This document shows, piece after piece, positions 58,810-62,900 of a stretch of DNA of 64,000 nucleotides; the first letter of the stretch is position 1; each line of letters begins with the position of its first letter. The stretch covers positions 1,364,001 to 1,428,000 of the forward strand of contig JAEPQB010000001.1 in assembly GCA_017640725.1 (NCBI GenBank), written 5' to 3'. Made by a program: the position numbers and the translations under genes. The DNA comes from Kordiimonadaceae bacterium. Lineage in GTDB: Bacteria; Pseudomonadota; Alphaproteobacteria; Sphingomonadales; Kordiimonadaceae. The notes beneath the pieces are model-generated. The model searched no databases and was not told the origin of the DNA. It saw nothing but the letters and a program-made list of their open reading frames with translations.

Positions 58810-59031
58810 GAATACCCCTTTGTCGGATAGCGCTTAGGCTGTTGGATTGGTGTAACCAAAAGCGTTACGTGCGCAAAGCGAAATCATGAAAAACCATAAG
58901 GATGGCAGCTTCGTGGCTACTTTTTTGACGAGGGACCGTACGTATTCATGAAGGCATGGTTTTTAATGGCTGTCTATGAAGCGCCTTCCAAGCGTGGACA
59001 GGGCAAAGTTACTGAATCCGGGAGGGCATGT

Positions 59032-59940
59032 GTGATCATCAAAAAACTGTTGCTTGCTGTGATCGCCGCGGGAGCTTTTTTGACTACTAGCGTGACCGCT
59101 CAAACATGGGGCTCAGCGACGGTGAGAACTGAAAAAGTGGCTGGCGGCGTTTATGTGCTGTTTGGGGAAGGAGGCAACGTCGGCGTTTTGGTTGGTGCCG
59201 ATGGCGTATTAATAGTGGACGACCTGTTTGCGCCCTTGGCAGGCAAAATCAAAACAGCAATTGAGGCGTTGTCAGACAAACCTATCCGGTTTGCAATCAA
59301 CACCCATTTTCATGACCATAGTACTGGAGGCAACGAAAGTCTGGGCAAAACGGGCACCGTTATTATTGCTCATGAAAACGTGCGAATTCGCATGGCAGCT
59401 GGCACATTAATAAGTGAAGCCAAATTCCGAACTGACCCACAAGCGGGCCCCGCCCTACCGGTCATCGCCTACAAAAACCAAACAGTTCTTCATATGAACG
59501 GAGAAAAAGTGCGAATTCATTATGTGCACAATGCCCACACGGACGGAGACAGCATTGTTCATTTTGAAGGGTCTAACGTTATTCATATGGGTGGTACTTT
59601 TTATGTGGGCACCTTCCCGTTTATTGATCTGGACAATGGCGGTTCGTTAGATGGCTTGATTGCGGCTGCTAATAAAGTACTGAGCATGGCTGACGCTGAT
59701 ACACGTATAATTCCAAGTCATGGCTCTGTAACTGATAAGGAAGGGCTCAAACTTTACCGCGATATGTTGGTTGATGTCAGAGAAAAGGTTTCTGTCCTGA
59801 AATCTCTTGGCTGGGGCCTTGAAGACGTGCAGGGGTCTTTTGTGCTCGACGACCATTTGCCATACTTTGGCCAATCCAGTGAAAGCGGAGCCAACTGGGC
59901 TCGTTCATTTATCGGTACTGTTTTTAACAGTATCTGGTGA
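59032..59940 (+). CDS. Secreted metallo-beta-lactamase-fold protein with degenerate metal site
   Basis: 302 residues from the GTG at 59032, preceded by GGGAGG; earlier ATGs lack such a site. The signal peptide is LLLAVIAAGAFLTTSVTA. The fold and most motifs match its neighbour at 60113, but the metal site is altered: THFHDHSTGG replaces THFHGDHTGG, so the Asp and third His of H-x-H-x-D-H are displaced. HMGGTF replaces HMGDTF, losing the bridging Asp. The final motif is PSHGSV. Probably not catalytic as a dinuclear hydrolase. Confidence 0.85.
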   Translation: MIIKKLLLAVIAAGAFLTTSVTAQTWGSATVRTEKVAGGVYVLFGEGGNVGVLVGADGVLIVDDLFAPLAGKIKTAIEALSDKPIRFAINTHFHDHSTGGNESLGKTGTVIIAHENVRIRMAAGTLISEAKFRTDPQAGPALPVIAYKNQTVLHMNGEKVRIHYVHNAHTDGDSIVHFEGSNVIHMGGTFYVGTFPFIDLDNGGSLDGLIAAANKVLSMADADTRIIPSHGSVTDKEGLKLYRDMLVDVREKVSVLKSLGWGLEDVQGSFVLDDHLPYFGQSSESGANWARSFIGTVFNSIW

Positions 59941-60112: not shown

Positions 60113-61009
60113 GTGACAATCAAAAAACTGTTGCTTGCCGCCTTATCGGTTGGCGCCTTTATGACGACTTCTGTCAGTGCACAGAATTGGGACGCGGTTC
60201 AAGTGCGCAGCGAAAAAGTAGCGGGAAATGTTTACGTGCTGTTTGGTGCCGGCGGCAACATTGGTGTTTCAGTTGGTGAAGACGGCGTTTTTATCGTGGA
60301 CGACCAGTTCGCGCCGCTGACCGAAAAAATCAAAGCGGCAATTGCGGAACTGTCTGACAAACCAATCCGGTTTGCGATCAACACCCATTTTCACGGTGAC
60401 CACACAGGTGGCAATGAAAACCTGGGCCGCGAAGGCACAGTAATCGTCGCCCATGACAATGTGCGCATTCGCATGGCGGCGGGCTCTTTCATCAAAGCCT
60501 TCAACAACAGAACAGAACCACAGGACGGATTTGCGCTGCCCACAGTGACCTTCAATGATCAAGCGTCCCTGCACTTAAACGGCGAGCAAACGCGCATGCA
60601 TCATGTGTCCAATGCTCATACAGACGGCGACAGCATTGTGCATTTCGAGGGTTCTAATGTGGTTCATATGGGGGACACATTCTTCAATGGCCGTTTTCCC
60701 TTCATTGACGTCGATAGCGGCGGCTCTATTGACGGTGTCATTGCAGCGGCAAACAAAGTGCTCGGTATTGTTGATGAAGGAACTCGGATCATCCCTGGCC
60801 ATGGACCTGTTTCCGACAAAGCTGGCCTGATGATGTACCGTGATATGTTGGTCACGGTACGAGACCGCGTGGCAGAGATGAAGTCCGCGGGCAACTCGCT
60901 TGAAGAGGTTGTCGCTGCTGGTGTCGTGGATGACTTTAAGGAAAATTATGGCGCCGGGGGCGAGCAGTGGCCGGCAGCTTTTGTTAGCTTTGTTTATAAC
61001 AGCCTTTAA
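60113..61009 (+). CDS. Secreted metallo-beta-lactamase-fold hydrolase
   Basis: 298 residues from a GTG after AGGAG. The signal peptide is KKLLLAALSVGAFMTTSVSA. The metal motif THFHGDHTGG is intact, with HMGDTFF and IPGHGPVSDK completing the two-metal site. This resembles subclass B3-like or general periplasmic MBL hydrolases (quinoprotein-relay / MBL group); a beta-lactamase activity cannot be assumed. It is a tandem paralogue of the gene at 59032, and ends in a strong terminator. Confidence 0.92.
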   Translation: MTIKKLLLAALSVGAFMTTSVSAQNWDAVQVRSEKVAGNVYVLFGAGGNIGVSVGEDGVFIVDDQFAPLTEKIKAAIAELSDKPIRFAINTHFHGDHTGGNENLGREGTVIVAHDNVRIRMAAGSFIKAFNNRTEPQDGFALPTVTFNDQASLHLNGEQTRMHHVSNAHTDGDSIVHFEGSNVVHMGDTFFNGRFPFIDVDSGGSIDGVIAAANKVLGIVDEGTRIIPGHGPVSDKAGLMMYRDMLVTVRDRVAEMKSAGNSLEEVVAAGVVDDFKENYGAGGEQWPAAFVSFVYNSL

Positions 61010-61906: not shown

Positions 61907-62517
61907 CAGCTTTCTGCAGCTTTGTCGTGTGCCAAGCGGCGCATCATCTGGCCGGGTAGCAGAATAAGCAGTGCGCTTGCCCCTGCGAGCACAAGCAGCA
62001 TTTCCGCGTCATAAGTTTTTTGAACTGTTGCGAAGATCAAGATGAGCCACCAGCCGGCCGCAACCGCGCGCAAGGCGCGCAATTCTGTCACCAGCGAAAT
62101 CACATAAAATGCACTGGCAATCACACCGCACGCGAGCACAGTGATGGCCTTTGGATTGAACACACTGGACGCAACAGCTGCTCCAAAATGCAACACCATG
62201 GTAATGCCAACCGCTAACCAAGCACCATTGTATGCGGTAACTGCAATGTTGGTTTCTGCTTCATGAGCACATGCGTTTCTGCCGTATAAAAAGGATGATG
62301 ACCAACCCACGGCGAATGCGGGCAGCCAAATAGCAAGCGAGCCACCCGGCACATAACCATAAACCTGCAAATATTGCGCAATGTAGGAAACCATCAGAAC
62401 AGCACCCCAGATCATAAGGTGTGCACCATCGAACGCTGCCTTTTGCCGACCTGCGTTCATCATCCGTCGAATGAGGGCCAAATCATCTGCTGCGCTGCGT
62501 GAAGCTGGGCTGTCCAT
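61906..62517 (-). CDS. Membrane protein, first gene of the winged-helix operon
   Basis: 203 residues from the ATG at 62517 (MDSPASRSAADDLALIRRMM), with GGAG 7 bases upstream; longer readings run through the operator. Five to six membrane helices follow (LMIWGAVLMVSYIAQYL, LAIWLPAFAVGWSSSFLYG, AWLAVGITMVLHFGAAVAS and others). I do not recognise a family. It is paired with a winged-helix regulator and a DUF2306-like protein. Confidence 0.78.
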   Translation of the reverse strand: MDSPASRSAADDLALIRRMMNAGRQKAAFDGAHLMIWGAVLMVSYIAQYLQVYGYVPGGSLAIWLPAFAVGWSSSFLYGRNACAHEAETNIAVTAYNGAWLAVGITMVLHFGAAVASSVFNPKAITVLACGVIASAFYVISLVTELRALRAVAAGWWLILIFATVQKTYDAEMLLVLAGASALLILLPGQMMRRLAHDKAAES

Positions 62518-62544
62518 CGAGTGTCTCCAAATTTTGTAACAAAG

Positions 62545-62563
62545 TACTTTGAAATACAAAGTA
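62545..62563 (-). promoter_or_regulatory. Palindromic operator upstream of the winged-helix operon
   Basis: TACTTTG-AAATA-CAAAGTA, a perfect 7-bp inverted repeat with a 5-base spacer, centred 37 bases before the first start codon. It covers the transcription start expected from a -10 AATAAT at 62574-62569 (minus strand). It is the best candidate binding site for the operon's own winged-helix regulator. Confidence 0.65.
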
Positions 62564-62596
62564 ACCAAATTATTCAAGAATTCAAGGTTTTCCAGT

Positions 62597-62610
62597 TTGA
62601 TGTGCATCAA
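62597..62610 (-). promoter_or_regulatory. Perfect FNR/FnrL/FixK box
   Basis: TTGAT-GTGC-ATCAA matches the FNR-family consensus TTGAT-N4-ATCAA exactly, and the symmetry extends by one base on each side. Its centre lies 41.5 bases upstream of the start point expected from AATAAT (62574-62569, minus strand), the classical class II activation position. The rest of 62518-62900 holds no gene that I can support. Confidence 0.7.
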
Positions 62611-62900
62611 ATTGTGTGGATTCTTTTCCCGAGTGGCCTAGGAAGCCATCAGTTTCGTCCAGTACGATCTAACTGGACAAGTGGTGCGCTTCAATTATGT
62701 CGACGTCACGGCACAAGTTCTGCATCAAAAGGTTAGAAAAAATGTACCTATTAACCGAAAGAACATATTGTTGGGTACAGCACAAAGCAAAACATGGTGA
62801 TCATGCTGCAACTACCAGAAATTGATCTTGATATTGCCAACCCTCGAAAGTGACTACAATAGCTGACCGGGGTCACTTAAAAAAACAGCGGAGCCAAATT

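Follow-up and report, generated by a model that had tools for sequence, protein, structure and literature searches.

Which regulators act at the promoter of a membrane-protein operon near the end of a 64,000-nucleotide stretch of DNA from a Kordiimonadaceae bacterium (hereafter the window)? The original prediction described an oxygen-responsive promoter with local repression, in which a perfect FNR-type box lies at -41.5 and a palindrome covers the start of transcription. The box is indeed present without a mismatch, and no other perfect match is found in the window. Likewise, the operon encodes two membrane proteins and a winged-helix regulator, and the palindrome does cover the start expected from AATAAT (+1 = 62562). 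It was said to overlap the box, and here only part of the claim holds: the palindrome is perfect and overlaps the promoter, but box and palindrome are 33 bases apart. The features are listed in Table 1. We consider it likely, from comparison of sequences, that this is the promoter of an autoregulated membrane-protein/HTH_34 operon with a P0002 operator over the -10 element and a possible added input from an FnrL-like protein.

Table 1. Features of the operon and its promoter (positions in the window).
Feature	Position	Strand	Description
FNR-type box TTGATGTGCATCAA	62597-62610		0 mismatches
TTGAAT	62580-62585	-	place of the conserved TTGACA -35, 16 bases before TACTTT
AATAAT	62569-62574	-	-10 of the original prediction; start would be 62562
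TACTTT	62558-62563	-	-10 position of the conserved promoter, kept in 15/15 orthologue promoters
Palindrome TACTTTG-N5-CAAAGTA, TACTTTGAAATACAAAGTA	62545-62563		perfect; probable HTH_34 operator
CAAAGTACTTTG	62540-62551		third half-site, adjoining the operator; formed by this half-site with the palindrome
P0001	61906-62517	-	203-aa hydrophobic membrane protein; no Pfam/NCBIfam match
P0002	61595-61906	-	103-aa HTH_34 winged-helix protein (PF13601), helix VSDGNLSTHLKKL
P0003	61069-61563	-	164-aa membrane protein; DUF2306-like, 21 bits, below the curated cut-off of 31.6

We compared the promoter with those of 15 orthologues from the Kordiimonas family (L011-L025; three loci were left out, namely L026, where the contig stops at the gene, and L027 and L028). 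All 15 have a -35 element, TTGACA in 12 and TTGACT in three, followed after 16 (11 promoters) or 17 bases (four promoters) by the palindrome, which is in every case placed over the -10 element. The palindrome is perfect in 12 promoters, carries one mismatch in the other three and is always preceded by a T. It is also perfect in L027 and has two mismatches in L028; L029 and L030, which are weak matches to P0001, have no HTH_34 match, and their nearest palindromes have three to four mismatches. The corresponding core of the window is TTGAAT-16-TACTTT, the only -35 among the 16 family promoters that departs from TTGAC[A/T]. From this conserved promoter transcription would start near 62551. The arithmetic behind -41.5, which is the class II activation distance of FNR, is correct if AATAAT serves as the -10; with the conserved -10 the centre of the box falls at -52.5. 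A match of five in six to a -10 element at one given place has a chance of about 0.015, considering the local base composition.

Next to the palindrome lies the third half-site, which could hold a second dimer; CTTTG is found at this place in 13 of the 16 family promoters, the window included, and the full ACTTTG in six. In the whole genome, ACTTTG-N5-CAAAGT occurs perfectly once, at the window promoter. Allowing one mismatch adds 10 more places, giving 11 compared to 17 for the backwards control, and thus a count that is not above the control. The strength of the palindrome is its conservation, not its genome count.

The protein encoded directly downstream of P0001 is an HTH_34 protein: P0002 scores 97.2 bits against Pfam HTH_34 (PF13601), with a cut-off of 27. 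P0001 itself gave no match in Pfam and NCBIfam, and the AlphaFold model built from three sequences has a mean pLDDT of 53.8, too poor for a structure search. Its identity to homologues in the closest same-genus loci is 80% and 72%. Among the 20 loci from other genomes that were found with P0001, a P0002-like HTH_34 gene directly follows the P0001 homologue in 18, and nine of these 18 also have a relative of P0003 within the examined flank. Past the end of the operon, the plus strand of the window encodes two tandem proteins of the metallo-beta-lactamase superfamily (58948-59940 and 60113-61009). An order like that of P0001 and P0002 is seen when HTH_34 is taken as the starting point. Of the 24 strong HTH_34 loci (set 1, below), 15 have a frame with at least three hydrophobic stretches immediately ahead of HTH_34, a count that excludes L094, whose upstream frame looks spurious. 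For six other upstream membrane proteins of HTH_34 loci no match above the Pfam cut-off was obtained. When the profile of P0001 was compared with those of five groups of other HTH_34 partners, two groups gave 97.9% and 94.2% and the remaining three 0.3-2.5%. P0001 appears related to the former two, and an N-terminal stretch like DLALIRxMMEAGR is common to all three.

Sites related to the palindrome were also sought near other HTH_34 genes, over the full length of each locus (about 3.2 kb) and not just in the DNA upstream of the operon. Set 1 comprises 24 strong HTH_34 loci (L076-L099; all with E values of 1.2e-16 or lower) from 200 genomes of the phylum. ACTYTG-N5-CARAGT with at most one mismatch is found in 12 of the 24, and the other 12 are without it. 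When these halves are set at any of 11 other spacings (0-4 and 6-11), 0 to 2 of the 24 loci have them, and 59 shuffled half-sites hit a mean of 0.56 loci, with a maximum of 6/24 (two shuffles close to the real half-site). At the same threshold, the motif was seen in none of six weak HTH_34 loci and in none of 24 loci from the own genome. If two mismatches are allowed, 15 of the 24 strong loci have it, but so do 6 of the 24 from the own genome.

Since the half-site seemed to track the recognition helix in set 1, a class prediction was made for a held-out set 2 of 20 further HTH_34 loci, taken from 385 genomes of the class, and was written down before these loci were read. Class A helices (.DGNLS.H) were expected with ACTTTG and class B helices (.DGNL[DEG]AH) with ACTCT[G/A]. 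In set 1, six of eight class A helices have the class A site, and in L094 a class A helix is accompanied by a hybrid site that is closer to class B; seven of 11 class B helices have the class B site and none the class A site. In set 2, the class A site accompanies six of eight class A helices and none of seven class B helices, and the class B site five of seven class B helices and none of the eight class A helices (Fisher p=0.002, with relatedness ignored; because related sequences are not independent, such p-values are optimistic). Class B loci without a site number 4/11 in set 1 and 2/7 in set 2. L098 in set 1 was counted as a miss despite having almost no upstream DNA. L076 and L077 in set 1 and L108 in set 2 belong to class D, the last having no site, and L116 and L120 in set 2, which were not assigned to any helix class, each carry a class B site. 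The prediction for class C failed in set 2, where its spacing was wrong; the form taken from set 1, ACTTTCC-N5-GGAAAGT, is found with at most one mismatch in four of five class C loci, two from set 2.

The helix of P0002, VSDGNLSTHLKKL, fits the class A rule proposed here, and a perfect ACTTTG-N5-CAAAGT site lies alongside. This agreement in class between helix and site makes the palindrome, with high probability, the operator of P0002, and we predict that it is very probably an autoregulatory one. Its position over the -10 element would make repression the natural outcome. The local repression of the original prediction is thereby well supported at the level of sequence, by the palindrome over the -10 in all 15 orthologues and by a half-site that follows the HTH_34 helix.

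Some further observations concern these loci. The genome has a second membrane-protein/HTH_34 pair (L077, at C6:1006113; 575-591 and 817-1761 of the locus), with the helix VTQGNLSVQ and an upstream palindrome of another 6-N5-6 form, AGTTTACATTATAAACT. In L088, L092, L096 and L099 the gene after HTH_34 resembles, by eye, undecaprenyl diphosphate synthase, and ACTTTG-N5-CAAAGT occurs at two places in each of the four, one copy in L096 being mismatched.

We then analyzed the FNR-type box. As a conserved control element it was rejected, since no perfect box occurs within 300 bases upstream in any of the 15 orthologues (L011-L025). The best match among them has one mismatch (L017) and lies at another distance, and all others have two to four mismatches. 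The possibility that the box serves the plus-strand gene at 62850 was set aside by eye; the class II -10 place there reads GTGGCC. In the whole genome (4.04 Mb) there are six perfect N4 boxes compared to none for the pattern read backwards. TTGAT-N(0..14)-ATCAA occurs at 166 sites, or about 11 for each spacing (the backwards control has 11 altogether), so that the N4 spacing is not over-represented. Boxes with one mismatch number 225 compared to 48 for the backwards control, and TTGAY-N4-RTCAA 21 compared to 17. By one automatic coding rule, two of the six N4 boxes are non-coding compared to one of 40 sites with other spacings (p=0.04). This rises to 4/6 compared to 3/40 (p=0.003) after the starts on both sides were corrected by eye, by which L002, L004, L159 and L160 moved. 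The boxes of the window and of L004 had scored as coding only because a frame extends upstream of the likely start; the box of L005 was kept as coding, because its start resembles a signal peptide. The 40 controls are the first among the matches listed, all on contig C6 and one per stretch, with four neighbour sites inside the same stretches omitted. This is modest evidence that some perfect N4 boxes are probably real FNR sites. Another perfect box, at 1501-1514 of L003, lies in the gap between genes that resemble, by eye, rpoN and a ribosome hibernation factor.

A candidate activator is encoded in the same genome. Locus L007 encodes a protein of 240 aa that scores best with the NCBIfam models FnrL (131.1 bits) and FixK (129.5 bits), both below their cut-offs of 300, and as it is below the FnrL equivalog cut-off we call it FnrL-like only. 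Its Cys 12, 15 and 111 line up with cysteines in an FNR of solved structure, it has another Cys at 23, and its recognition helix reads TVETVSR compared to TVETISR in FNR. The protein thus carries predicted Fe-S cysteines and an FNR-like recognition helix. Counterparts with at least 71% identity are found in five of 19 genomes of the genus, the own included, and in a sixth genome the match is at 32%. The genomes of L011, L012 and L013 encode an FnrL that is 95-96% identical, yet their promoters are without a perfect box, and a missing regulator does therefore not explain the missing box. According to PMC2908626, the extended regulons of FNR-type regulators differ among close relatives, and a species-specific gain would therefore be normal. 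Since the FnrL-like protein is encoded, oxygen control is possible as such a gain. The oxygen response claimed by the original prediction is hence plausible from the encoded regulator, but all 15 orthologue promoters, including those of three genomes with a nearly identical FnrL, are without a perfect box, which speaks against it. The box, which is seen in this species alone, may or may not be functional.

Two other features of the genome concern oxygen regulators. The palindrome TTGACGAAAGTCAA occurs at 2256 of L008 and at 3694 of L067 (C6:278658 and C6:416462), once ahead of a hemN-like gene and once about 0.8 kb ahead of ccoN, and nowhere else in the 19 genomes of the genus. It is likely an oxygen-regulator site, and its presence in one of 19 genomes means that it gives no genus-wide yardstick. 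For Rhodobacter, PMC4634722 gives TTGATnnnnATCAA among the FnrL sites. Beside the hemN-like gene, L008 also encodes (1021-1773) a Crp/FNR-family protein with a cysteine-rich C-terminus, CSACSNEFPC.

How do these results bear on the promoter as a whole? In the arrangement we prefer, a P0002 dimer would bind ACTTTG-N5-CAAAGT over the -10 element and block RNA polymerase, and P0001, made just before P0002, would probably adjust this repression according to some signal. The core would be the conserved one, with a TTGACA-like -35, 16 or 17 bases and TACTTT. In this species, where the -35 is TTGAAT, the upstream FnrL-type box may add activation at low oxygen, either at -41.5 from the alternative AATAAT start or at -52.5 from the conserved start. 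We regard it as very improbable that the palindrome serves a different regulator or works at the RNA level, with neighbourhood as its only link to HTH_34. The binding of P0002 is a prediction, and the second HTH_34 gene of the genome has the different palindrome AGTTTACATTATAAACT, but the site tracks HTH_34 loci at one spacing and its half tracks the recognition helix.

The alternatives that concern the box are closer. It could be a chance match without function, with HTH_34 control acting from the conserved promoter only, and we put this at somewhat below an even chance. Six perfect boxes compared to about 11 for each other spacing, 225 one-mismatch matches in the genome and the lack of a perfect box in the promoters of relatives all fit such a match; the preference of perfect N4 boxes for non-coding DNA, the exact class II spacing to AATAAT and the encoded FnrL-like protein do not. 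These same three points, together with the perfect box itself, the low chance of the AATAAT match (about 0.015), the aligned Cys 12, 15 and 111, the FNR-like helix, TTGAAT as sole departure from the family -35 and the variability of extended regulons (PMC2908626), would fit a main start that is an FNR class II promoter, activated by the FnrL-like protein at low oxygen and repressed by HTH_34 over +1. This we hold to be possible but rather unlikely, as no orthologue promoter has the perfect box, even where FnrL is 95-96% identical, the N4 spacing is not enriched genome-wide and the conserved promoter would place the box at -52.5. This reading is the original prediction in full, and it is compatible with the operator part of our preferred explanation.

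For the common HTH_34 family, these results provide a concrete candidate operator and a testable helix-to-site rule, by which the targets of other HTH_34 genes become predictable. They also illustrate how little a perfect FNR box proves by itself, since conservation favours another promoter start and another regulator. As a hypothesis, the P0001-type membrane protein gates the HTH_34 repressor. More tentatively, and with doubt, one may see in HTH_34 and the multi-helix membrane protein that often precedes it a widespread, undescribed signalling pair. In it, the membrane protein would gate the repressor, the half-site (ACTTTG, ACTCTG/A or ACTTTCC) would be readable from a few helix residues, and a decayed -35 and a newly acquired FnrL class II box would recently have rewired the pair to oxygen in this species.

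Our searches of the open-licence literature found no operator and no helix-to-site rule for the HTH_34 family. A relative of P0002 with a solved structure is PH1061 (PDB 1ub9; phmmer E 2.3e-8), an HTH_34 protein recorded as hypothetical. Small DNA-binding proteins encoded together with multi-helix membrane proteins are also a feature of the LytTR regulatory systems. P0001 and P0002 resemble these in the pairing of their genes, but the DNA-binding fold differs. Finally, the promoter shares with class II promoters of FNR and FnrL the perfect box and, if AATAAT is the -10, the class II distance; it differs from them in that the box is unconserved and that a conserved promoter with another -10 occupies the same place.
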